Assembly (NCBI RefSeq): GCF_003086295.3
Contig: NC_092038.1
Span: 129,235,518 to 129,299,517, forward strand
From: Arachis hypogaea
Taxonomy: Eukaryota; Streptophyta; Magnoliopsida; Fabales; Fabaceae
DNA length: 64,000 nucleotides
Reading direction: 5' to 3'
The stretch's first letter is position 1; every line of letters starts with the position of its first letter. Shown in pieces: positions 2,881 through 64,000 of this stretch. The notes beneath the pieces are model-generated. The model ran no database searches, had not been told where the DNA came from, and was given only the letters and a program-made list of their open reading frames with translations. A program made the position numbers and the translations under genes.

Positions 2881-5697
2881 ATGGGGAAGAATCAAGCCTA
2901 CAAAGCTATGCAGAGGGCCAGGCTCGGCGGCGCCTCCGCCGGCCCCGACGAGATTGAAGACGGCATGGTTTGTACCCTTCCATACCACCCATCTATTTAA
3001 TTTTTCTCATTCCATTTAACCTAATCTTGCTTTTTGTGGATTTAGGGTTCTATTTTTTTTTTAAAAAAAATTCAGCATGTGCTTTTGTTCCTTTTATTTA
3101 CTATATGCTTTTCTGATTGTTTTTGGTGTATTCCCTAACAAAATCCTTTTCCTTATTCAAGACATTGAGTCATTTTGACCTTCATAGTTTATGCTTGGTT
3201 CTACACTCTCTAGACTCAGTTTGGTATGGTCTTATAATTAGGGAAAACATAAATAATAGGTGTGATTTTTCGTGAAAATTTCATTTTGGGATTTAGTTAC
3301 TTCGGGAGGCCGCCAAACTGGTCATTAGTGCCATCAGTTTAACGGTAAATTCATTATAAGTTGTATTAAAGGTGCTGATAACGGCACGAGGTTTGGAATT
3401 TATTCCTTGTGACTAATCTATTATGATAATGGACAACTTGATAAAATATAGCTGAACTCTACTACATTGGAACAGCAGGGTCATCAATGTTGACATGGAC
3501 AAACTAAACCTTTTCAGAACTAAGGAATAAAGAATTGACAGTTGATGCATATGTGTGCTGTGTACACATGGATACCTAATATTAGCAAGAATCACACAAC
3601 AGTACCCTGGATTTTTTATTTTTTCCTAGTAGCTTTCAATTTAATAACACTGTATTAGAAACTTTGTTGAAAGGAATGCTTCTTCCCTTGGCTCTCGGTT
3701 TTCTTATCTTTTTGTGTGTTATGGGTTTTTATGCTTTGTAATACTTGAATGTTAGATCTCTGTTTTTCTCGTGGACCTTTATTGATGAGGACAGTCGCAG
3801 GTGGATGGTTCATTTCATTCACCAGAGTGGCATGCTGCTCGTTTGGCTAGCCTTAACACTTCTCACACAATTACCTGGGAGGAGTTCAAAAAGAAACAGA
3901 AGGTAATCATTTCAGCACCTTTACAGCACCTTTATTATTTAATCTTATAAAGGAAGTACAAATCTCATTTGTTTCTGGGGACTGAGGCTACCTACTTTAC
4001 TTTTTTTCATCAGTGTTAGTTGAAAATAGGCCCATGAATTTTCTATGCTAATTAGTCTTTGAGCTTGCATATGCTATAACTCTTTTACCGTTACGAATCC
4101 GTGTCAGTGGTGAGGACTGTGATAATAAGCGTGGGACTGTAATAAGATCGTATCTAGCCACTAGAAAGTTGAACTGAGGAAACCTGTGGGGCAGGTAAAG
4201 GTGAATTACTTCTCTGGCCTACTAACTGAGGTGGTCATAGGCGAAGTTTTGACTTGCTTTTATACGGTATTTCTGACCCTGACCAATAGTTCTGTTTGTG
4301 ACTGTTGCTTGTTCCCCGGGGAGCTCTTCTGGATTTGCAAGTTTGTTTCTAGCTTGTGTCAATTTCCCAGGGCAATCACTCCATTAATTATCTTGTTTTT
4401 CTTTAATGTGTAATACATTTGATTTTATTAGAATTTAATTTAATAGGAAGAAGAAATGAGAAAAGGGGAGTTGGAAGCAGATGCAGATAGGATGATGAGA
4501 GAGTACAGAGCTCAACTAGATGCTGAAAGGGCCCGCAAACTTTCCCAAGGAAGGAACCATTCTGGTAGTAAGTCCAAACTCAAAGGTATGTGTGCTGAGG
4601 TTGCAAAAACATGGTGACTGGCATGTGTTTCTTGTATTTCTTTTCCCCACTCCCAACTTATAAACTGTTGCATGTTATCCCATGCAGTTAAGAAGGACAA
4701 AATTTCAAAGAAGCACAGCAGCAGAAAGCGAAAGGTGCTTTTTGATTTCTAAAACGTGTAGTTCTGAAATCTACTTTTCCCAGAGAAGAACTCGGTTTTT
4801 TATGCTAAAATTAATGGCTTTGTTTTCAATTCGAATAGTAATGTTAGTATGCTACTATCCCCTCAAATTTCGCATCACTGCTAAGTAGTGGCTATCTCTT
4901 TCCTCTTAGTTTTCAGTAAGGTTGATATTGGACCAATTATAGTGTGTTTAAATTATTGGCACAACAGGCATGTTGAAAATTTGGTGAAGGCTTGTATGTG
5001 TATCTCTGTTTTGAACTTCACTTTGTTCGAAACGTTGCTGCTTCCCTTTCCCTCTAGATAACTGATAAAATGTTTGAATGGATTTAAAGTTCATTATCTC
5101 TCGGCAAACATTTCTTTTTTTAAAAAGGAATAAGTTTCTGTTAATGAAATGGATAATCATATATAATGTACTTGTAGTCTTGTACTATCATTTGCTTTAC
5201 ATCAATGTCTTTGTTTTAAGGTATGAAAGTGCTTTTCTGACTGAAGTGATTGATTATTTATCTCGTAGGTTTTTATTGTTAGATTTTGCAAAACGATTGT
5301 TAAGTACTGTGGCATATTGTTTTGATTTATATGGGGTATGACTCGTCTATCTTATCCATATGATGAATTACTTTATTTGTAGTTGTTCAAATGAATCTAG
5401 CAATGTTGAATAGGGTATATATCTGTTTACTTTTGTTAATATTTGTATATTTTCTATGGCTTCTCATTGTAACTACTATTGTAGCATTCAAGAAGATCTT
5501 CATCTAGCTCCTCTTCATCATCCTCCTCATATTCTTCCAGTAGCGATGAAGAAAGAGGGTCAAGAAGATCCAAGTCCAGGTCCAAGAGATCAAAGAAGGA
5601 AAAGAAGGCAAAGTCAAGAACAAAGGATTCTGGAACTGATGATGAAGATGGTGGCCCAGTTCGCCTTTCAAAATTTTTTGGGAATGTCAAGAGTTGA
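2881..5697 (+). CDS. FAM133-like Lys/Ser-rich protein (5 exons)
   Basis: The exons are 2881-2967, 3801-3902, 4447-4585, 4688-4734 and 5485-5697. They total 588 nt and give a 195-aa protein, with all introns GT-AG. The start MGKNQAYKAMQRAR is followed by TWEEFKKKQ (about residues 54-62) and a charged helix rich in Glu/Arg/Lys (about 63-100). The tail is basic: Lys-rich, then an 11-residue serine run, an acidic SSDEE patch, RS dipeptides, and a conserved-looking RLSKFFGNVKS end. The MGK start, TWEE motif, charged helix and Ser/Lys-rich tail match the layout of FAM133 proteins. Those are poorly characterised, and the RS/Lys-rich tail suggests a nuclear, RNA-associated role (inference). The gene is convergent with MPK6. 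Exon structure is firm; the family call is moderate. Confidence 0.8.
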
Positions 5698-7069: not shown

Positions 7070-10304
<3,235 letters not shown>

Positions 10305-10694: not shown

Positions 10695-10878
10695 GTGTGA
10701 TCTGCCCAAAGTTCTTCTCTTTATTGTAACGCATTGCTTAGTCCATGTGTATAACACTTCACTAATATTGTGATAGATTTTTAGCTTAATATATTTATGA
10801 TGTGCATTCAAAATGAAAAGGAAAACATTGAAGGAGCATTTTTTTTCCACTGAAGTTTATATGGTGTTTGTAATAAAT

Positions 10879-11202
10879 GAGCAGGAACTTGTATATTTGG
10901 TTTACTAAAATAGAATAAATTTTTAAAATATTATTTAATACAAATAAGATAATTAGATAAATATGCCAAAAATATAAATCTGCTAAATATGGCTATCTTG
11001 ATTTATATGTAGATTCTAAACTTTAATGACTTACTAAAATGAGCAGGAACTTGCATATTTGGTTTATTAAAATAGAATAAAATTTTAAAATATTATTTAA
11101 TACAAATAAGATAATTAGATAAATATGCCCGAAATATAAATCTACTAAATATGGCTATCTTGATTTATATGCAGATTCTAAACTTTACTGGCTTACTAAA
11201 AA
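10879..11202. repeat. Tandem duplication of a 162-bp unit
   Basis: The block starting GAGCAGGAACTTG near 10879 is repeated at 11041 with a 162-bp offset and only scattered substitutions. It is a simple two-copy tandem duplication in non-coding DNA. Confidence 0.9.
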
Positions 11203-17477: not shown

Positions 17478-17963
17478 ATCCCAATTAGGTAGTGTCCTAT
17501 TTGTTTGTTTTTAGTCTGGTGATCGCCCGAGTTGTTTTACTCCGACTTGTTTATTGACTTTATTACCTAATGGTTTTTGCAGAGATGGCGAAGAAGAATT
17601 CTAGAGAATCTTACCAGAGAGTCTAAGAGGCCAAGACGAGGTCCCCCGCCAGGGCTGGCGGCGCCAAGGCTGCTGGCCCTCCCCCTCCTCCTGACAACCT
17701 GGGGACCCCCTCCCGACCTATTGTCATATCCTCATCAGCATCTTCTCTTCATTCCCCTCCTCCTCGACCTTCACCTGAGCTGGAGACGAAGAACTGCAAG
17801 ACTTCAAGGTCTAGCTGTTCTTTTGAAGGTGAGGCTAAGTCTGATGCGCCTCAGTTTGTTCGGAATTATATCTATCCTCATACTCGTATAAGTATGGATG
17901 ATGCTTCTGTTCGAAACCACCTTAATCTTCTGGTTCAGGGGAGTGTTAAGGCAGCGGGGGGTG

Positions 17964-19523
17964 TGACAAACCCCAAATTGACGGTTTATCTTGTATTGAT
18001 TTTAGGGGATTTTATAACCTTTTACCCACATTTATTCAATGAAATAGCATGGTTTTGTATATTCTCCTTTAATTGTGCTTAAGAGTGAAAACATGCTTTT
18101 TAGGCCTTAAAATAGCTAAATCTAATTCACCTTGATTCCATTAGATGCCTTGATATGTTTGTTAAGTGATTTAAGGTTTAGGAGGCAAAGATTGGATCAA
18201 GGGAATGAAGAAAGAAGCATGAAAAGTTGGAGAACTCATGAAGAAATGAAAGAACCGGAAAGCTGTCAAGCCGACCTCTTCGCACTTAAACGACCATAAC
18301 TTGAGCTACAGAAGTCCAAATGATGCGGTTCCAGTTGGGTTAGAAAGCTAACATCCGGGGCTTCGAAACGATATAAGATTTGTCATAGTTGCTACACGTA
18401 TGGTGGCGCGCACGCGCCGTTGCTGCCATCTGGTTCACTTAATGCAACATGTGGCCAGCGATTTTAGAAGCCTTGTGGGCCCAATCCAACTCATTTCTGA
18501 TGCTATTTAAGCCAAGGATTTAAGAGGAATCAACTAACTTTTAACCATTAGTCATAGTTTAGTTTTAGAAGTAGTTAGAACTAGTTTCTAGAGAGAGAAG
18601 CTCTCACTTCTCTCTAGAATTAGGATTAGGATTAGGTTTAGTTCTTAGATCTAGATTTAGATTCATCTCTTCTACTTCTATCTTCTCAATTTCTTGTAGT
18701 TACATTCATTCTTCTCCTACTCTTTTGGTGTAATCTCTTTTATGTTGTTCTTATATTTTGTTGTAGATCTAGTATTGTTCCTTCTACTTTCTTTCAATTC
18801 AATTCAAGGTAATTCATAATAATTGTGTTTCTTTTGATTGTTGTTGTTAACTTCTTTCAATAATTGTTGTTAGATTCTCTTCTTGTTGTCAAATTGCTTT
18901 GTTTTTCTTTTGTACCTTCCAAGTGTTTGATGAAATGCTTGGTTGGATTTTAGTGTAGGTTTTGTTCCTCTTGGCCTAGGTAGAGTAATTAGTGACTCTT
19001 GAGTTATCTAATTCCTTTGTTGATTGATAATTAGAAGTTGCTAATTGATTTGAATGCCTCTAAAGCTAGTCTTTCCTTTAGGAGTTGATTAGGACTTGAG
19101 GAATCAAATTGATTCATCCACTTGACTTTCCTCCATGGTTAGAGGTTGACTAAGTGGGAGCAATGGACAATTTGCCATCACAATTGAGGAGGATAACTAG
19201 GATAGGACTTCTAGTTCTCATATCTTGCCAAGAGCTTTGCTAGTTGTTAGTTTATTTTCTTTGCCATTTATATTTCTCGCCATTTATATTTCTTGTCTAA
19301 AATCTTAAAAAACACCAAATATAATTCACAACCAATAACAAGACACTTTATTGTAAATCCTAGGGAGAACGACCCGAGGTTTAAATACTTCGGTTTATAG
19401 ATTTTAGGGGTTTGTACTTGTGACAAACAAATTTTTGTATGAGAGGATTATTGTTGGTTTAGAGACTATACTTCAACGAGATTTCATTTGTGAAATTCTA
19501 AACCGTCAAAAATCCAATCGTCA
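17964..19523 (+). repeat. Left LTR of the inverted element
   Basis: 1560 bp, from TGACAAACCCC to CCAATCGTCA, then AAA and the primer site. The first 440 or so bases differ from the right LTR by about 2-3%. The interval at about 18395-18475 is largely unrelated, and the distal R/U5 part is clearly more diverged. Confidence 0.88.
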
Positions 19524-19526
19524 AAA

Positions 19527-19588
19527 TGGCGCCGTTGCCGGGGATCGAACCCGGGTCGTCCGCGTGACAGGCGGAAATACTTACCACT
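19527..19588 (-). other. tRNA-Asp copy (nt 14-76, with CCA) extending a primer-binding site
   Basis: On the minus strand this 62-base stretch reads as tRNA-Asp(GUC) from the D arm (AGTGGTAAGTATT) through the anticodon arm (GCCTGTCACGC) and T arm (GGGTTCGATCCCC) to GGCGCCA. It matches the plant tRNA as I know it with about three substitutions. Its 3' end is the primer-binding site next to the left LTR. Nucleotides 1-13 are missing, so it is not a functional tRNA gene. The encoded CCA shows it came from a mature tRNA, since plant tRNA genes lack CCA. A 15-bp inverted repeat (AAAAATCCAATCGTC and its complement at 19589-19603) flanks it. Confidence 0.9.
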
Positions 19589-19614
19589 GACGATTGGATT
19601 TTTTTTTTACCGAC

Positions 19615-20035
19615 GCGTGCGCGTCATGCACGTTTATACGTCGATGGGTATATTGGTCGAAGGACGCGTACGCGCCAGGTGCGCGCACGCGTGCATCGAG
19701 TTAGTCCGGAGGCATAATGTCGGCCCAAGTCTGGCACAACTCTCGGGTAAAAGTACCAGGAGTGTGGATCGTGCAATCGACGCGCGCGCGCACAGTGTGC
19801 GTGCGCGTGCATTGCCAATTTAAGATCATGTGCGCGTACGCGCCAGGTGCGCGCACGCGTGCATAGACTTGTGCCTTAGGCCCAATGTTCGCACAGCGCA
19901 GGCCTAACTCTCGGGTTTTTGGCTGGGGTAGAATTTTTGCATCCACGCGTATGCGTACAGTGCGCGTCCGCGTGGGTGGTCAAAAAAATGCTCCGGTGCG
20001 CGTACGCGTCATGTGCGCGCACGCGTGGATGGTGT
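19615..20035. repeat. CG-rich tandem block of alternating purine-pyrimidine motifs
   Basis: About 2.5 copies of a roughly 165-bp unit, each carrying GCGCGTACGCGCCAGGTGCG-like palindromic segments. Clear examples start near 19668, 19835 and 19998, with related ones near 19775 and 19943. It is strikingly CpG-rich in an otherwise AT-rich window. Short related segments also lie in both LTRs (about 18410-18422 and 23448-23490). Confidence 0.8.
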
Positions 20036-20303
20036 TCTGTTTTTTCAAAGAAAAATTTTTTTGCTATGTTTTTGCACCAAGCCAAGCATTCCAAACCTCC
20101 AAACAGCTACCAAAATACCATAAAACCTTATTTAACATGATAAAAAACTAATTAAACTCAACCAACTAATCTAAACATGCAATTAAACTAGTTCTACCAA
20201 TATGTACAAAAGAAAGAAAATGAAAAGAAGTTACCATGGTGGGGTGTCTCCCACCTAGCACTTTTGTTTATTGTCCTTAAGTTGGACTTATGGGGAGCTT
20301 CTC

Positions 20304-22214
20304 TCAAGGTGGCTTGTGCTTGTATTCATCTTGGAACTTCCACCAATGCTTGGACTTCCAATAAGCTCCATCATTCAAGATCAATATCTCCAAACTTTGA
20401 TGGGGTTCTTCACAAGCTTGTGGCTCCCAAAGTTGGTCTTCTTTTTGTGATCCGGGGTCCCACACTTTATTTTCACACCCGTCTTGAAGTTGATCATCAT
20501 TATTGGTCCATCCGGGTGGTGAACAAGATGAATTCTCTATATAGTGGCCAACAATCCTCCTAGACCCATCTATTTGAGCACTACTCCAACCTTTATATCT
20601 CATGTTTGATGCATCAACCATAATGAGCCTTGATTTGCAACGCCCACCACAAAACCTTTTCCGCTTACGCTTCATCCCACAAACTTCCCTAAGTTGGCCA
20701 TCCATTTCAAGTAAACCATATTCAAGTGGGATAATAAAGCTAATAGAAATGAATTTCACCCACTCAAATGAAGGTGTAGATGACAACCTAGGCAAAGATG
20801 CTTCAAAAGATCTTGACAAAGCATAACCAACCCCCGTTCTTCTATTTCTACGGACTTCCACCTCTTCACAAGATCTCTTAATCTCAATCCTTTGTTCAAC
20901 AATTTTATCTAAACCTTTTCCTTTACTCAAATCATAATAGGGAGGGTGAGAAAAATTTACCTCCTTAACGCTTTCAAATCCAACCGGAGAAGGTTCTTCA
21001 TGCTCAACGGATTCTTCACCACTAAGACTTGATGCTTGATCTTCATCACCAAAGGAACTCAATCCTTGCTCTATCCCATCCAAGTCTTCATATGGAGTAT
21101 GCCTTGGAAGGTGTGCACTTTCCTCCCTAGCATCAATTTCAATCATCTTGGAGGGGTTTTCTTCAACTCTATGTTCCCATGGAGGCTCCGTATCTCCTAA
21201 GTCTTCTACCACTTCTTCCTTGTCTTCAACAATTAAAGCTTCCTCCAATTGTTCCAATACAAAGCAACTTCCTTCATTTCCCACCAAAATTTCCAATCTC
21301 TCCTTCATGCTATGTTCTTCATTTGATTCTCCACATGTAGCCATGGGAGTTCCTTGAGTGTTCAAGCATTGGGAGGCTAATTGATTTGTTACCGCATCCA
21401 AGGCGGCCATGAAATTTTGCACATCCCTTTTCATCTCTTCTTGCCCTTGAACAAGAACACCAAGGGTTTCATCCATTAGAGGTTGGGGTGGATGGAAGGA
21501 TTCATCATGTTGGGGGAAGGGTTCATAGTAGGAAGATGATTGTTCTTGGTAGAATTGTGGTGGTTCTATGTTTTCCATTCTTTCCACTTGTTGCACAACA
21601 CACTCCATGGTTGCTTGAAATTGATCCAACGCTTCTTTGAGATGATCCCTTGGCTCTTGTTCCTCTTGGATAATATGATTAGGATCATGTGGCTCTTGGT
21701 TCAATGGATATGAGTATTCTTCCATGGGAGGTTGTAGTGGAAAGTAGAATTTATCTTGTGGTTGAAAATTTTCATTTATTGAGGGTGGTTCATCTTGGTA
21801 ATAATATGGAGGGGGTGGCTCTTGAAAGGGTTGATATTGTGGTGGTTCCATATATGGCTCATATAGCTCAAAAGTTGGTTGGTGTGATGGATATGAATTA
21901 GGGTCATATGAAGGTGGTTGGTAAGAAGGGGCTTGTGAGTATGGTTGAGAGTTATGTTGAAGGTATGGATCATAGGCATATGGTGGTGGTTCTTGAAAGT
22001 CACAAGGAGATTCACCAAAGCCATTTGATTGGTATGCATCATAGAATGGCTCTTCTTCATAGTGCATTGGTGGAGGTTGTTGCCATGAAGATTGATCATA
22101 TGCATATGGCTCCTCCCACCTTTGGTTATCCCATCCTTGATACACATCTTCATTATAGTCCTCATCACCTACAACATAATTGTAATCACACTCATAGCCA
22201 AAATGAGAATTCAT
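20304..22214 (-). CDS. Uncharacterised 636-aa ORF of the inverted-LTR element
   Basis: An uninterrupted ORF starting MNSHFGYECDYNY at 22214. The nine codons upstream in frame begin with TTG, so the ATG is preferred. The first third is Tyr/Pro/Gln/Glu-rich and probably disordered. A helical, acidic middle follows (EQLEEALIVEDKEEVVEDL, about residues 315-335), and then a basic patch, KRKRKRF, around residue 530. I recognise no gag, zinc knuckle, protease, RT or transposase motif. It sits downstream of the right LTR and its primer site, where gag would be expected, so a gag-like or packaging role is possible. Absence of stops over 1.9 kb suggests recent origin or past constraint. Confidence 0.6.
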   Translation of the reverse strand: MNSHFGYECDYNYVVGDEDYNEDVYQGWDNQRWEEPYAYDQSSWQQPPPMHYEEEPFYDAYQSNGFGESPCDFQEPPPYAYDPYLQHNSQPYSQAPSYQPPSYDPNSYPSHQPTFELYEPYMEPPQYQPFQEPPPPYYYQDEPPSINENFQPQDKFYFPLQPPMEEYSYPLNQEPHDPNHIIQEEQEPRDHLKEALDQFQATMECVVQQVERMENIEPPQFYQEQSSSYYEPFPQHDESFHPPQPLMDETLGVLVQGQEEMKRDVQNFMAALDAVTNQLASQCLNTQGTPMATCGESNEEHSMKERLEILVGNEGSCFVLEQLEEALIVEDKEEVVEDLGDTEPPWEHRVEENPSKMIEIDAREESAHLPRHTPYEDLDGIEQGLSSFGDEDQASSLSGEESVEHEEPSPVGFESVKEVNFSHPPYYDLSKGKGLDKIVEQRIEIKRSCEEVEVRRNRRTGVGYALSRSFEASLPRLSSTPSFEWVKFISISFIIPLEYGLLEMDGQLREVCGMKRKRKRFCGGRCKSRLIMVDASNMRYKGWSSAQIDGSRRIVGHYIENSSCSPPGWTNNDDQLQDGCENKVWDPGSQKEDQLWEPQACEEPHQSLEILILNDGAYWKSKHWWKFQDEYKHKPP

Positions 22215-22353
22215 GATAGCAAGAGAGGGCAAAAAAAACAAAAAATAGGAACAATTAAAGAGAACAAACTAAAAATTAACAAAGAAGCAAAAAGCAAACA
22301 TATTCACAATATTCACATATATACAATAACCAATAACACAACACCATTGCAAT

Positions 22354-22371
22354 TCCCCGGCAACGGCACCA
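22354..22371 (-). promoter_or_regulatory. tRNA-Asp primer-binding site of the right LTR
   Basis: On the minus strand TGGTGCCGTTGCCGGGGA follows the LTR end by three bases. It matches the 3' 18 nucleotides of tRNA-Asp with one mismatch. Unlike the left site, it does not continue into the tRNA body. Confidence 0.85.
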
Positions 22372-22374
22372 TTT

Positions 22375-23920
22375 TGACGAATGGATTTTTGACGGTTTAG
22401 AATTTCACAAATGAATTCTCGTTGCAAGTATAGTTTCTAAACCAAGCAATAATCCTTTCATACAAAAGATTGTTTGTCACAAGTAACAAACCCCTAAATT
22501 TATAAACCGAAGTATTGAACCTCGGGTCGTTCTCCCTAGGAATTACAATAAAGTGTCTTGTTATTGGTTTGAGTTGTTTTGGGGTTTTGGATAAGAGACA
22601 TGAAAGTAAATGGCAATGAAAATAAACTAGCAACTATAAAAGGCTCTTGGTAAGGTATGAGAACTAGAAGTTCTATCCTAGTTATCCTTCTCAATTGTGA
22701 TGAGAATTGTTCATTGCTACCACTTAGTTAACCCTTGCTAATAAAGGAAAGTCAAGTGGATGAATTGACTTGAGCCACAAGTTCTAGCCAACTCCCGAGG
22801 AAAGACTAGCTTTAGTGCACTCCAAACCAATTAGCAATCTCTCCAATTATCAATCAACAAAGGAATTAGATAACTCAAGTGTCACTAATTACTCTACCTA
22901 GGCCAAGAGGAACCAAATCTACACTAAAACTAAAAGAGACATTTCAACAAACACATAAAGTGCAATGGAAGTAAACATTATTAAATGCAAGAATTAAAGA
23001 GAGATCTAACTACAAAAGCAAGAGATCAACAATAGAAAAGCAAAGAAGAACAATTATTATGAATTACCTCTTATTGAATTGAAAGAAAATGGAAGGAACA
23101 ATAGTAGATCTACAACAAAGTATAAGAACAACATAAGGGAAATTACAACAAAGGAATGAAAGAATGTGAATGTAACAACAAGGAATTGAAAGGTAGAAGT
23201 AGAAGAAAGCAAAGATTAAAACCTAGATCTAAGAACTAATCCTAATCCTAATCCTAATTCTAGAGAGAAGTGAGAGCTTCTCTCTCTAGAAACTAATTCT
23301 AACTACTAAACTAAACTAATGGTAACTAGATGTCTCATCCCTCTTCAATCCTTGACTTAAATAGCATCAGAAATGAGTTGGATTGGGCCCACAAGGCTCC
23401 TAAAACCGCTGGGGACGATTTCTTTAAAGTGGGCCACGGACAGAATCGGCGCGTGCTCGCAAAGTGCGCGTGCGCGCCCCTGAACGCGAAGCAACATATG
23501 ACAAAATTTATATCATTTCGAAGCCCCGGATGTTAGCTTTCCAACCCAACTGGAACCGCATCATTTGGACCTCTGTAGCTCAAGTTATGGTCGTTTAAGT
23601 GCGAAGAGGTCGGCTTGACAGCTTTCCGGTTCTTTCATTTCTTCATGAGTTCTCCAACTTTTTATGCTTCTTTCTTCATTTCCTTGATCCAATCTTTGCC
23701 TCCTAAACCTTAAGTCACTTAACAAACATATCAAGGCAGCTAATAGAGTCAAGGTGAATTAGATTTAGCTATTTTAAGGCCTAAAAAACATGTTTTCACT
23801 CTTAAGCACAATTAAAGGAGAATATACAAAACCATGCTATTTCATTGAATAAATGTGGGTAAAAGGTTATAAAATCCCCTAAAATCAATACAAGATAAAC
23901 CGTCAATTTGGGGTTTGTCA
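22375..23920 (-). repeat. Right LTR of the inverted element
   Basis: 1546 bp on the minus strand, TGACAAACCCC...CCATTCGTCA. It is inverted with respect to 17964-19523 and not identical to it: near-identical U3 start, a replaced block at about 23410-23510, and a diverged distal part. Confidence 0.88.
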
Positions 23921-24608
23921 GGGTGTGCACTAAGCTTCTAGATATTTTTTAGAAGACTCCCCTCAGCTCTTTGGGTTCATCCCTGAGGGTTGAGGAGCTA
24001 GAAGGGAGGATTCTTTTATATCAAGAAGGGGGGAAGAGGTTGAAGGAGGAGGTCGACGAGTTGGAGGAGGAGAGGAATCGTCTTCGGGAGAAGGAGAGGA
24101 AGCTGCAGGCCTAGTGTGCCATGACAGAGGGTCTGAGGGAGAAGGCGGAGCAGAGTTATACAAGTTTGTTCGAGGACCTCGTGGAAGTGAAGAAGGATTT
24201 AGTGAAAGCTCGGAACGCCTACGTGGAGATGGAGGACTCTATTGCCGAAGGGCCGAGGAGGCGTGGGGGATCTTCAAGAAACAGGTCGGGGTTATTGCTC
24301 CCGACCTGGATCTTTCTCCCGTGGATCCTGATAAGATCGTGGTCAATGGGGCTATTGTTTCTCCTCCCCAACCTGTGTCCGAATCCGAGCTGAAGACTCA
24401 GAGACAGAGGATAATAGAATCCCCTCCCCGACCAAGAGATGTCCCGAGTTCCTCGAAGGCTTCCGAGAAGGATTCCGACCAACTTGCCCCGTCTTCCGTT
24501 GATGTTGCCCCAACTTCTCTCCCCAGTCCTGATGGTGCTCCAACTGCTCTCCCTGGCTTTGGCGATTATCTTCCTCTTGGTGGTGGTGACCTTCCTTCTT
24601 CTAACTAA

Positions 24609-47659: not shown

Positions 47660-49405
47660 GGATTTTTTTTAAATAAATAAAATAAATATTTTAATTATGA
47701 AAATAGGTAATTTGTAGAATTTTTACCGATTTTCATAATCTTATTTATCTCGTTTACAGTATAACAAAATAAATATAACCATATCTCCTTTACATTGTAA
47801 ACGAGATAAAGCACAAACTTATTTACACATATCACGTTTATACATGTATTATGACACAGACTTTTATGGCTACATTTATTTCGTTTACACTGTAACTAAG
47901 ATAAGGTTAAGTCGCATGTATAAATAAAACTCGTGCCTCCTCACCTACTCTCCATCCCCCTTAACCCCCTATCTCTCTTTGACACATGCTTTCTTGATAT
48001 TTGTGAGTTTCCAGTAGTTATGGCACGCGGACGCACGAGAGCTTGACATCAACCACCTGAACATTAGTTGGCACATTGCAAAAGCAATAGATTTCGAAGT
48101 TATTGTCATTTTTATCGTTTAAATTAATAAGAGTATGTGATTATAGTTAGGGTGCTTTTATAGATTTATTCTTTTAACACATGAGTATGATGGATTATAT
48201 TTAAGTAACATAGAATAGGTTAGTTGGCAAGTTATTAATATTTGGTAGTGTATAATTTATTTATAGTAAAAGTTAATTTACTAATTAATTTGGTTTAATT
48301 TACGTAAACTCCACTCTTTTTCACGTAACACATATACAAACGTAATACATGTAAATGAGTTTGTGTCTTATCTTATTTACAGTATTGTAAACGAGATATG
48401 GCTATACTTATTTCGTTTATACTATAAACAAAATAAGAAAAGTTACGAAAATCGATAACAACTCTACAAATTATTTATTGAGTAAAGTATCGTTTTTGTC
48501 CCCAACGTTTGGGGTAAGTCTCAAAGTTGTCCCTATCGTTTGAATCGTCCTATTTAAGTCCCTAACGTTTCAAAATTAACTCAATGTTGTCTTGCAGTTA
48601 GGAATCCATTAACGAAATTAACAGCGGGATAAAATTGAGACGATTTTGAAACGTTAGGGATTTAAATAAGACGAACACGTTGGGGGCAAAAACGATACAT
48701 CGAAATAAATTTTAATTTTATTATTCGATAATATCAATTTTTTACGGTACATAGTTATTCAGTTATTTTTTAATCACATATAAGTAAATTACACTTAATC
48801 ACATTAATTTTATTCTAAATAAATTTATTTTTTTATAATTTTAGTCTTAAAAATTTTTTACTCATCATAAAATATTTGTAGAATGACTAGTACATAAACT
48901 TGTGGGGAAAAATAATACATATACAATAAAGTAATGTGATTCTAGTCATTTTTATAAACATTTAATGATAAGTAAAAATCTTTAAGAGAAAAATTATAAA
49001 AAAAAATAAATTTATTTAGAATCAAAGTAATATGATTAAGTGTAATTTACTTAAATGTGATTTAAAAATAATTGAATAACTATGTACCGTAAAAGATTGA
49101 TATTAGTGAATGATAAAAATTAAAATTTATTTCTATGTATCGTTTTTGTCCCCAACGTTTTCGTCCTATTTAAGTCCCTAATGTTTCAAAATCGTCTCAA
49201 TGTTGTCCCGCCGTCAATTCTGTTAACATATTCCTAACGGCAGGACAATATTGAGTCAATTTTGAAACGTTTCGGACTTAAATAGGATGATTCAAATGTT
49301 AGGGACAATTTTGAGACTTACTCAAACATTAGGGACAAAAATAATACTTTACTCTTATTTATTTTTATAATTAAAATATTTATTTTATGTATTTAAAAAA
49401 AATCC
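47660..49405. mobile_element. Mutator-type inverted-repeat element, split by a nested MITE
   Basis: The left end, GGATTTTTTTTAAATAAATA (47660), is inverted at the right end (to 49405). The arms 47660-47790 and 48395-48479 plus 49364-49405 pair once the nested insertion 48480-49354 is removed. The original length is about 860 bp, with no coding capacity. Target duplications are not clear. Confidence 0.65.
48480..49354. mobile_element. Long-hairpin MITE with 9-bp target duplication
   Basis: The ends read GAGTAAAGTATCGTTTTTGT and the near-perfect inverse ATACTTTACTC. The two arms pair over several hundred bases, including repeated CCCCAACGTTT / AAACGTTAGGG segments. A perfect 9-bp duplication TTATTTATT flanks it (48471-48479 and 49355-49363), as expected for Mutator-type transposition. 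There is no coding capacity. Confidence 0.88.
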
Positions 49406-51792: not shown

Positions 51793-52837
51793 ATGGCGAA
51801 GAGGGATTCAAGTGAATCTTACCAGAGGGTCCAGGAGGCCAAAGCGAGGTCCCGTGCCAGGACCGGCAGCGCCAGGGTAGCTAGCTCTCCTCTTTCTCTT
51901 CCTCCCCCTTCTTCCCAAAATTTGGGGACCTCTTCTCTTCCTATTGTTGTTTCCTCCTCGGCCTCTTCTCAGCCGCCCCCCTTCCCCTCGATCTTTTCCT
52001 GAGCCAGACAAGAAGAAGCGCAAGACTTTAGAGTCTTCCTCTTCTTTTGAAGGTGAGGCTAAGGTGGATGCTTCTGCATTTATCCGGAAACACATCTATC
52101 TCCATACCCGTATAGGTATGGATAATGTTTCTGTCCGGAACCACCTCACTATTCTGGCTCAGAAAAATATCAGGGCGGCGGCAGTGTGCACTAAGTTTCT
52201 TGATATTTTTGAGAAGACTCCTCTTAGCTCTCTGGGTTCAACTTCGAGGGTTGAAGAGTTGGAGGAAAGGCTTCTCATGTATCAAAAACATGAGAAGGAG
52301 TTGAAGGAGGAGGTCGCTAAATTGAAGGAGGAGAGGGATGGCCTTCGGGAGAAGGGGAGCAAGTTACAAGCCCAATGCAATATGGAGGAGGGCTTGAGGA
52401 AGAAGGCGCAGGAGAGTTATTCGAGCTTGTTCAAGGACCTCGTGGAGGTGAGGAAGGACTTGTTGAATTCTCGGACTGCTTACGCCGAGTTGGAGGACTC
52501 TATTGCTGAGGGAACCGAGGAGGCTTGGAGGATTTTTAAGGAGCAGGTCGGAGTTCTTGCTCCTGATCTGGATCTCTCTCCTTTGGACCCTGACAAGATT
52601 GTCATTGATGGGGCCATTGTGTCTCCTCCCCGACCTGTGTCTGAGTCTGAGTTGAAGACTCGGGGTCAGAGAATCATAGAGTCTCCTCCCCGACCAGACG
52701 ACGCTCCGAGTTCTTCCAAGGCTCCCGAGACTTCTCTTCCAACTTCTGTGGGTGCTCCTCTCCCTGGTCCTGGTGGCGTTGCGGCTAATCTTCCTGATTC
52801 TGGTGGTGATTCGACTACTCCTGGTGGTGATGCTTAA
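51793..52837 (+). pseudogene. Antisense ORF2 of element B, coiled-coil protein
   Basis: It starts MAKRDSSESYQRV at 51793 with a Ser/Pro-rich segment. A shift in a C-run near 51975-51985 moves it to the frame that stays open to 52837. That frame encodes a basic KKKRK patch, MDNVSVRNHL, a long Glu/Lys/Leu coiled coil, LDLSPLDPDKIVIDGAIVSP and a Pro/Gly-rich tail. The layout matches the broken copy in element A. Apart from the single shift, it is largely intact. Confidence 0.7.
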
Positions 52838-61105: not shown

Positions 61106-62281
61106 ACTTATTATTTTATTTATTGTTAATAAATATGTGTATCACTAATCAAATTAGAATTAAGTCCATTATATGAAAAAAATTTTGAAAAAAAATTCTT
61201 TTAATATTAACCAAAATATTTTTCATAAAATTTAAAAAAGTAAAACATTTGGAGACTAACTTACTTTTACTCTTAAAATTATTACTATTAAAAATGAAAG
61301 AATGTATAATTTAGGTAATAAGTAATTATTACTATACATTTACCGTGGTTAACAAATTTAATTTGTTTTTATAATTATATGTCCTAAATATATTACTAAT
61401 TATTTTTATATATTTAATATTTTACATGTTTTAATTTATAAATTGAATTGATATTTTACTATTATTAAAGGTATTCCATTTTTTTAGAAGAAAATATTTA
61501 ATTTTAAACATAAGACTAAATTAGAACGACATAAAATGTTTTAGACGAAAATAAAATATTTCAAACATTAAGGATAAAATTAGAATTTAGTTTAAATATT
61601 ATGGACCAAAACAATATTTTTTTAGTTGTAAATTGTTATTTATTTTCAAATATTTAATAATAGGGTAAAATATACTTTTGTCTTTAATGTAATTTCTTTT
61701 AAACTATCTCTAATTTTTTATTTAATTTAATTTTATCTCTAACGTTTTCGATTCATTCAATTTTATTCCTAACGTTTTCGATTTGTGTCAACACTATCTT
61801 TAAAAGTTTTTAATTTTGTCCCTAATAAATACGTTAGAACAAAATTAAATGCAACTAAACATAAGAGTATTTTTAAAAAATATCATAAATATTAGGACAA
61901 AAAATATATTTTATTTTTAATAATATTATTGAAAAATAAATTAATTTTTTTTTAAATTAAATTTCATATAAAAGATCTTAACGTATTATAATAAATTAAT
62001 AAATATATTAAATTATTTTTAATTTAATTAATTAAATAGGTAAAACTATAATAGAAAGTAGAGACTGATATTTGTCTCTTATTGAAAAGAAAAACAGACA
62101 CCTTTAATAATAATAATTTATCAATCTAATTTATAAATTAAAAGTTTAAAACATGTAAAGTAATAAAAATAATTAGTAATGTATTTAGGACATATAATTC
62201 GAAAAACAAATTAAATTTGTTAACCACAATAAATGAACAGTAATTACCTATAACTATACATTCTCCCTTTTTTTTTTAATA

Positions 62282-63092
62282 GAGGAGTGCTACACATACA
62301 AGTCATTTGGTTTACAAGTCCTACAAGTTGGGAGAAACTTAACAAAAAACACGCTAGCCCATATACGATTTTCATGGCGTGCTTCGCGTTCCTCCTTCTC
62401 CTCCTCCCCCTCTTCCTTCTTCTTCTCCTACTCTTCTTCTTCTTCCTCCATGAAAATGAGTTTCTTGTTAAATTTGTTCGATCTCCTTCATGCGTTCTCT
62501 CTTTACCTTTTCATTCGTTGTTTTATCTGCGTTTATCATTGGTATTCTTGCTTCGTTTTTTTTTATTTTCATGGTTTCTGAAATCAAGTTTTGAAATCGT
62601 TTTGAAGATAATGGAACTTCAGAAATACACCCAAATGATTACATAAATACACTCAAACGGTTACAGAAATACACCCAAACGGTTACAGGAATTTACCCAA
62701 ACGATTATAGAAATACATCCAAATGATTACAGAAATACAACCAAAGGATTTAAAAAATACACCCAAAATTCGTTGAAGTACACCTTATGCATACTTCTCT
62801 TTTTCTTCCTCATCTTGTACTTATTCTTCTTCTTCATTTTCTTATTTCATATTCTTATAATTCTTTTTGGGAAAAAAATCAAACAAAAAAGAAAAAAATA
62901 CATAACGTTGCAAAATCAAAAGAAGAACGAGGAGAAATACGACGATGAAGATGAAATACTTCAAAAACAAAGAAGAAGAGGAGGCACGGAAAAAGAAGAA
63001 GAATGAGAAGAAAAATAGGAGGAATAAAGAAAGAAAAAGAAGATGAAATAAATGACTTGTATGAGAAAACGCTTGTATGTGGAGAATTCCTC
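62282..63092. mobile_element. MITE-like element (811 bp) with 9-bp target duplication
   Basis: The ends GAGGAGTGCTACACATACAAG and CTTGTATGTGGAGAATTCCTC are imperfect inverses. TTTTTAATA is duplicated at 62273-62281 and 63093-63101. The interior has C/T-rich and GA-rich low-complexity stretches and a short tandem array. The ORFs inside are simple-sequence artefacts. Confidence 0.85.
62607..62765. repeat. 22-bp minisatellite
   Basis: About seven degenerate copies of ACAGAAATACACCCAAACGGTT, 22 bases each, inside the 811-bp element. Confidence 0.88.
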
Positions 63093-63115
63093 TTTTTAAT
63101 AGTGATAACTTAAAA

Positions 63116-63665
63116 GGGTAAAGTACTAAATTGGTCCTTGCGTTTGGGCGTAATTTTGTTTTGATTTGTAAGGTTTAAAGTATCCTATTTGAATCCAAAA
63201 AAGTTTCATTTAGCTTCAATTTAGTCTCATTGTAAAATCAAAGTTAAATAATTAACAGAATGTCCTACATTACAACAGTATAAGAACAAGATCGATAATC
63301 TGGATAACAAGCATAAGCTCCAGAGGCACAAAATCAACCGTGGATGCATCAATACATTTATTTATCATTTTTTATAATTTAAATGAAATATTTTCTATAG
63401 AACTAAAAAAAATGATAAATAAATGTATTGATGCATCTACGGTTGATTTTGTGCATTTGGAACTTGTACTTGTTTTTTAAATTATCGATATTATTTTTAT
63501 ACTGCGGTAATATAGGATATTTCAGTAATTATTTAACTTTGACCGCACGGTGGGACTAAATTGAAGTTAAATGAAATTTTTTTGGATTCAAATAGGACAC
63601 TTTAAACCTTAAAGACTAAAACAGAATTCCGCCCAAACGTAAGGGATCAATTTAATACTTTACCC
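63116..63665. mobile_element. Hairpin MITE (550 bp) with 10-bp target duplication
   Basis: The ends GGGTAAAGTACTAAATTGG and the inverse AATTTAATACTTTACCC continue as long pairing arms meeting near 63385. TAACTTAAAA is duplicated at 63106-63115 and 63666-63675. No coding capacity. Confidence 0.88.
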
Positions 63666-64000
63666 TAACTTAAAAGAGTGAAAGTAAGTTAATTTTTAAA
63701 TATTTTTTTCTTTTTAAATTCTATGAAAAATATTTTGGTTAAGATTAAAAAAATATTTTTTATTTTTGTTTTTTAAAATTTTTTTATCTAATAGACTTAA
63801 TTCTAATTTGGTTAGTAATACACATATTTATTAACAATAAATCAAAATAAGTAGTCTTTAACACCAAAAAATAATAATAAGTAGTCTCTATGGTACACGG
63901 TACAGAGTCACAGACTCTCTTTTTTACTGTAAGTCAAAGGAATCAATAATTGTGTGCTATAATTAATTCTTCCCCATCCAAAAATCAACTACGTGAACTA

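Follow-up and report, generated by a model that had tools for sequence, protein, structure and literature searches.

The window, a 64,000-nt stretch of the Arachis hypogaea genome (contig NC_092038.1, positions 129,235,518 to 129,299,517, forward strand), contains a 5,957-bp retrotransposon unit at 17964-23920 whose two long terminal repeats (LTRs) form an inverted pair. The same U3 terminus, TGACAAACCCCAAATTGACGG, is outermost at both ends of the unit in opposite orientation, at 17964-17984 on the plus strand and again at 23900-23920 on the minus strand, and an exact GGGTG duplication abuts it on both sides. The unit bears the usual marks of an LTR-retrotransposon insertion, including a 5-bp target-site duplication (TSD), TG...CA LTR termini, and a primer site just inside the LTR. 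The standard direct LTR pair, with one U3 and one U5 outer end, is absent. The two LTRs are 97% complementary over their outermost 424 nt and 80-89% complementary in four more blocks. A primer site for transfer RNA-Asp (tRNA-Asp) follows inward of each LTR after 3 nt, reading TGGCGCCG... on the left and TGGTGCCG... on the right. The polypurine tract (PPT) motif AAGTGTGGGGAGGT, which is common before 3' LTRs elsewhere, has no exact match in 17900-24000.

The unit resides in a longer host element, whose own LTRs are 93.6% identical across 535 aligned positions. When the flanks of the unit are joined with one GGGTG retained, they align across the insertion point with the host-type element B, also located in the window, with 487 of 640 positions identical and 3 gap positions. 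The empty site in element B is real, and because the joined flanks align through the insertion point, the unit most simply entered a pre-existing element once and as a whole. A 5-bp duplication alone could arise by chance with odds of ~1 in 1,000, and the match to an empty site carries more weight as evidence. An original prediction, made from the letters of the window, had called the inverted LTRs with two outer U3 ends, the primer site inward of each, the perfect duplication around the unit, and the empty site in element B, and had ascribed them to one integration of a complementary DNA (cDNA) with two U3 ends. All of these calls hold, the last through the TSD, the exact U3 ends, and the empty site.

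Several features go beyond that prediction: a 62-nt tRNA copy, a 16-nt inverted piece of U5, an A/T-run junction into the middle of a partner element, two LTR subfamilies, and a genome-wide set of related scars. The left LTR is separated from the tRNA copy by AAA, and the copy is comprised of the 18-nt primer site and 44 nt past the usual stop at 1-methyladenosine 58 (m1A58). ARAGORN found no tRNA gene anywhere in the window, as expected for a partial copy. The left arm contains exactly one LTR, from U3 nucleotide 1, and a tRNA copy, a composition that matches plus-strand strong-stop DNA. The inverted U5 piece starts precisely from the LTR terminus, shares its first T with the tRNA copy, and leads through a T run into the internal region of the partner.

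The partner arm is a 3'-truncated element. Window positions 22374 to 19599 align with positions 56-2870 of locus L062 at 91.4% identity and break at the A run, whereas the internal region of L062 continues to its 3' LTR start at 5052. Among the 40 matches to window 19600-20330, which include the window's own, 39 other genomic places match at 89-94%; 35 of the 40 reach the last query base, 4 end 1-2 bases short, and 1 ends at position 657 of 731. The A run therefore belongs to the element, since 39 of these 40 matches extend to within 2 bases of the query end. A poly(A) tail was rejected as the source of the run, which is internal in family copies. The pol order that marks the Ty3/gypsy superfamily, with reverse transcriptase (RT) before integrase, was considered in the 645-amino acid (aa) partner open reading frame (ORF), where a Pfam profile search gave no match, and in the frames of L062. 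L062 (C1:79893200-79900200) is one canonical copy of the element, and its six-frame ORFs above 150 aa are only one of 652 aa and an overlapping one of 196 aa. It looks non-autonomous by this content, and its RT and integrase may come from another family.

Table 1. Coordinates of the inverted-LTR unit, its internal parts, and its empty site in the window.
Feature	Position	Strand	Basis or remarks
Left TSD copy, GGGTG	17959..17963	.	Sequence; empty site in element B
Left LTR, subfamily A, 1560 bp, U3 end outermost (TGACAAACCCC...CGTCA)	17964..19523	+	Full-length relatives 93-96% among the 40 best genomic matches; alignments
tRNA-Asp copy, probably of mature tRNA, 62 nt	19527..19588	-	Minus strand is tRNA sense, nucleotide 14 to the CCA end; 62/62 match
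Inverted U5 terminus, 16 nt (TGACGATTGGATTTTT)	19588..19603	-	All 16 match the U5 of the left LTR; one base differs in the right LTR
10-T run, junction of the U5 A5 run with the partner internal A run (A11 in L062)	19599..19608	.	Overlaps the last 5 of the 16-nt U5 piece
Partner (B) internal non-coding stretch, GC-rich repeats	19609..20303	-	Breaks off in the middle of the canonical internal region
Partner ORF, 645 aa	20304..22241	-	Gag-like by position only; no Pfam match
Partner primer binding site, 18 nt, tRNA-Asp with one mismatch (TGGTGCC)	22354..22371	-	Alignments
Right LTR, subfamily B, 1546 bp, U3 end outermost	22375..23920	-	Full-length relatives 93-97% among the 40 best genomic matches; alignments
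Right TSD copy, GGGTG	23921..23925	.	Sequence; empty site in element B
Empty site, matching stretch of host-type element B	51924..52562	+	Alignment to the joined flanks

Both window LTRs were aligned with 53 of 58 other LTR loci, with L054 and L057-L060 excluded as incomplete matches. The window LTRs are 97-99% identical to one another in the first 405 nt and 77-89% identical past LTR position 405. In this alignment the left LTR is A-type and the right LTR is B-type, which directly shows, on the grounds of subfamily, that two parent genomes are joined in the unit. Several members of the B set (L048, L050-L053, and L056) look mixed in region 406-560. Over the outer 405 nt, all 53 relatives are near the left LTR (89-99% for positions 1-150 and 96-99% for positions 151-405). 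Because the outer U3 is conserved across both subfamilies, its identity between the two arms is not in itself proof of a common template. On the same 53 relatives, the step in identity from 97% to ~85%, which had suggested a template switch inside U3, proves nothing by itself.

Two details touch on a common source of the U3 tips. Both window LTRs carry A at position 14, where 53 of 53 others carry T, and a single one of the outer 170 columns distinguishes them; 4 of 696 A-B pairs are as close. The private base and the close outer columns are weak evidence, and a common source is only suggested. The original prediction had described the integrated cDNA as palindrome-like. Its two U3 ends stand, but the left arm is only an LTR with a tRNA copy and the right arm belongs to a truncated element of the other subfamily. 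A perfect palindrome is not proved, because high outer-U3 identity is common to the whole family, and the arms belong to different subfamilies, which led to rejection of a perfect self-hairpin as a complete explanation.

The unit is probably the result of a single integrase-mediated insertion of an aberrant cDNA that was built from two co-packaged genomes, both belonging to a single tRNA-Asp-primed family of LTR retrotransposons. Plus-strand strong-stop DNA (U3-R-U5) of genome A would have overrun the 18-nt primer site and copied 62 nt of mature tRNA-Asp, the relic of which is present in the unit. The primer would have been without its m1A58 block, and the 44-nt non-matching tRNA tail would have kept the 3' end from being extended at the minus-strand primer site during the ordinary second strand transfer. 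The 3' end, in the order proposed here for joins that are visible in the unit, would then have been extended by 16 nt on a plus-sense U5 terminus and carried by A/T-run microhomology onto the internal region of genome B, which was copied back to the primer site. Copying B to the primer site would create a normal minus-strand 3' end, and an ordinary transfer with B-type strong-stop DNA could then supply the second exact U3 end. This U3/U3 product would have been inserted with the 5-bp duplication that surrounds the unit. By analogy, a retroviral integrase can chemically accept a U3/U3 pair, because Rous sarcoma virus integrase, as excerpted from PMC3579926, performs concerted integration in vitro with single-U3-end donors (a gain-of-function U3 variant).

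The tRNA copy of the window belongs to a wider set. In the other LTR loci, the primer site directly follows the LTR in 21 of 58, and the tRNA sequence continues past it in none of the 21; the left LTR of the window is the exception. Scars were sought as exact matches to TGGCGCCGTTGCCGGGGATCGAACCCGGG, which consists of the 18-nt site and 11 nt beyond it, so that mutated scars are missed. The pattern occurs at 41 places in the 2.56-Gb genome, and its reversed control occurs at none. All 41 places, of which 20 were read as 351 nt and 20 as 159 nt in addition to the window, are CCA-bearing over-extended copies of tRNA-Asp. An LTR end of the family type, TCAAAA, adjoins 21 of them, and the remainder follow sequences that were judged by eye to be other LTR ends. 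TCAAAA followed by the exact 18-nt site is found at 7,531 places, and thus the 21 scars amount to ~0.3% of that context.

The copied tRNA is 29-75 nt long with a median of 65 (n = 41), measured by a greedy match whose ends are possibly a few bases off. Copying reached tRNA nucleotide 14 or further in 26 of 41 scars and nucleotide 1 in 5 of 41. By eye, L098-L100 and L086-L087 each look like copies of one event, which leaves ~38 independent scars. L098-L100 (C20:68.76-68.79 Mb) lie ~14.8 kb apart and share an identical 49-nt tRNA extension and the sequence that follows it, which suggests duplication or inheritance of an extended primer site. At L103 (C20:123968047), a 47-nt tRNA copy is followed by sequence that looks bacterial by eye, with no match in a plasmid collection, and this locus is a possible assembly join. 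The equivalent over-extension pattern for tRNA-iMet has 0 exact places in the genome, a count to be read without a tally of iMet-primed elements, and the tRNA-iMet body without the CCA requirement has 7. A search of viral contigs with the U3 pattern gave no match.

What follows the tRNA copy is an inverted LTR or element at 8 of the 41 scars and a direct one at 8 (L068, L070, L077, L079, L083, L085, L092, and L096), with 25 unplaced. Inverted U5 occurs at L067, L091, and L102, where it matches the upstream arm at 84.2%, 92.1%, and 86.5% over 120, 38, and 37 aligned bases, gap columns uncounted. Inverted U3 is found at L071 and L090 and inverted internal sequence at L072 and L074, and the window is the eighth inverted case. 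At L067, 101 of the 120 bases aligned between the arms are identical, with 13 columns of gaps, and the 75-nt tRNA copy is perfect. Because the arms diverge while the tRNA copy is perfect, two different elements were probably joined there too. The inverted U3 at L090 has an exact end (...GGGGTTTATCA), beyond which lies GATAACTG. At L077 (C11:115329880) and L085 (C17:33672224), the LTR end is followed by a tRNA-Asp copy of 58 and 75 nt, respectively, and then, by eye, by a second primer site and its following sequence; these two seem to be over-extended strands that resumed normal transfer.

L091 offers a possible view of the priming step. Copying there proceeded to tRNA nucleotide 3 (...CAACG) and was followed by GCGCCATTTTGATGA, and the U5 beyond the junction differs from the locus's own at 3 of 38 positions. 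This junction is exactly what would be expected if CAACG had paired with the CGTTG of a primer site and been extended. The complement of the 5' acceptor strand of the tRNA resembles the tRNA 3' end, and in this one case the tRNA copy appears to have primed where the tRNA itself would. More tentatively, failure of the m1A58 roadblock could be a recurrent route to inverted-LTR insertions, in which the acceptor-strand copy of an over-extended plus strand primes on the primer site of the second packaged genome, as at the L091 join, and gives two-U3 cDNAs that integrase accepts. If so, plant genomes hold a dated record of primer-tRNA undermodification.

The source of the copied sequence was considered through its body and its 3' end. 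Exact matches to the 58-nt tRNA body of the window copy occur at 8 genomic places, of which 5 are among the 41 scars (the window, L074, L084, L090, and L095) and 3 lack CCA. These three are taken as tRNA genes. Plant tRNA genes normally do not encode CCA. A mature tRNA was probably copied, because the copy bears CCA while the three CCA-less places carry an identical 58-nt body. Reverse transcriptases usually misread or stop at m1A. Opposite A58, the copies carry T at 41 places and A at 2, and at control position 23, 1 place carries a base other than A (3 variant places were counted by pattern only). A misreading signature opposite A58 thus appears absent, as expected with an unmethylated primer, and absence of m1A58 from the copied tRNAs is the simplest reading. 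In the excerpted account of HIV-1 (human immunodeficiency virus type 1) in PMC13191261, copying of an unmodified primer tRNA runs through to the 5' end of that tRNA, over-extension follows when the m1A58 methyltransferase is mutated, and the stop is lost in TRMT6-mutant cells.

The original prediction favoured a template switch or cDNA joining between two co-packaged RNAs. An abnormal join of two templates, A-type on the left and B-type on the right, is borne out, and between the two routes serial template switching is favoured over end joining but not proved. In an end-joining model, over-extended LTR DNA of A and the U5 end of an independent linear B cDNA would be joined tail-to-tail by ligation, a concurrent or later slip between two A runs would remove the PPT, U3, R, and most of U5 of B, and the resulting two-U3 molecule would integrate. 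The inverted U5 piece does start exactly at the LTR terminus, like a ligated linear end, and the deletion shows A-run microhomology; moreover, according to the excerpts of PMC12220202, Colicelli and Goff (1986) described a circular Moloney murine leukemia virus (MMLV) DNA in which a tRNA lies between the LTRs. The A arm, however, is a single LTR and not a complete cDNA, the U5 piece fits A (16/16) better than B (one base off), and the L091 junction, with CAACG on a primer site, resembles annealing-primed extension. End joining is the less likely origin of the unit, but a serious alternative.

Two further explanations are far less credible than ligation. A conventional insertion might have been altered after integration by inversion, recombination, or gene conversion with another LTR; A-type and B-type LTRs are abundant in the genome, and complex elements of the Triticeae are mostly ascribed to recombination (20 versus 2 by template switching in ~7 Mb; PMC1950507). 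Such a change is highly improbable here, as it needs a U3 boundary placed exactly against the duplicated GGGTG and the creation of a CCA-bearing tRNA copy, and the TSD brackets the whole unit and matches the empty site. The family is also very numerous, with ~10,000 first-look candidates for the left LTR, and an assembly could in principle fuse two of its elements. There is very little room for such an artefact either, given a junction that holds a CCA-bearing tRNA copy and an inverted U5 terminus (found in 0 of 21 sampled LTRs with a primer site), similar scars at 40 other places, and flanks that agree with the empty site.

Several observations weigh against the favoured account of serial template switching on an undermethylated primer. 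A 12-site haplotype around position 14 also occurs in 11 of the 53 other LTRs, and the internal part accompanies B-type LTRs mostly but not without exception: its first 875 nt are matched at 86% or above by 11 other loci, of which the B search supplied 10 and the A search one, L021. Either A or, with one difference, B could be the source of the 16-nt U5 piece. The reading of A58 assumes both that this RT would misread m1A and that plant tRNA-Asp normally carries m1A58. Inversion is one outcome among several, with the direct and unplaced scars forming the rest. The original prediction had proposed looking through the genome for other insertions with U3 on both sides, and although inverted scars were found, a second complete U3/U3 insertion was not confirmed; the window unit alone has both of its outer ends verified. 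The opposite LTR at L090 starts imperfectly and has GGAGGT, a sequence also present in the PPT, in front of it, and searches for the far outer end of this locus with GATAA plus U3 gave 3 and 22 places, none of them there.

Template-switching complexes with a TSD, over-extension on undermodified tRNA, and tRNA inserts in retroviral DNA are already known. The complexes of Sabot and Schulman in cereals (PMC1950507) resemble the window unit in being ascribed to two packaged RNAs and in forming a single insertion with flanking 5-bp TSDs. Those complexes, with three LTRs and two cores arranged in the ordinary way, show no inversion and have similar outer LTRs, whereas the window unit has two inverted LTRs, one truncated core, U3 at both ends, and a tRNA copy at the junction. 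Its outer LTRs, unlike theirs, are not highly similar along their length past the first 405 nt. In over-extended HIV-1 strong-stop DNA, as far as PMC13191261 was excerpted, the plus strand likewise copies the primer tRNA past the m1A58 stop, up to the tRNA 5' end. The unit has the same hallmark, with U5 and the primer site running on as primer-tRNA complement past A58, CCA included, over 62 of 62 nt. The HIV-1 molecules are reverse-transcription products, while those described here are integrated relics of plant elements, with tRNA-Asp and new joins.

A nearly complete tRNA cDNA at a junction is also a feature of the tRNA-containing retroviral DNAs treated in the excerpts of PMC12220202, which include the MMLV circle, HIV-1 tRNA recombinants, one with 63 nt of tRNA-Asp, and an HIV provirus with tRNA-Gly. 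These are laboratory cases with tRNAs other than the normal primer, and the excerpts describe no inverted LTR pair with two U3 ends and a TSD. In the listed titles and abstract beginnings of open-licence PMC papers, no inverted-LTR two-U3 insertion and no genomic set of over-extended primer tRNAs was found. The unit offers a natural-genome view of a failed plus-strand stop on the primer tRNA, in which the strand jumps templates and can yield integrable two-U3 DNA. The 41 sites form a natural data set for asking what the m1A58 stop guards against; the prior work met on this question concerned HIV-1. Tools that expect direct LTR pairs will miss such insertions.

Elsewhere in the window, further long inverted repeats with 82-92% complementarity lie at 63136-63644, 794-1266, 654-1420, 48707-49127, 61328-62244, and 61114-63846. 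At 10875-11198, a 162-nt unit is duplicated in tandem at 94%.

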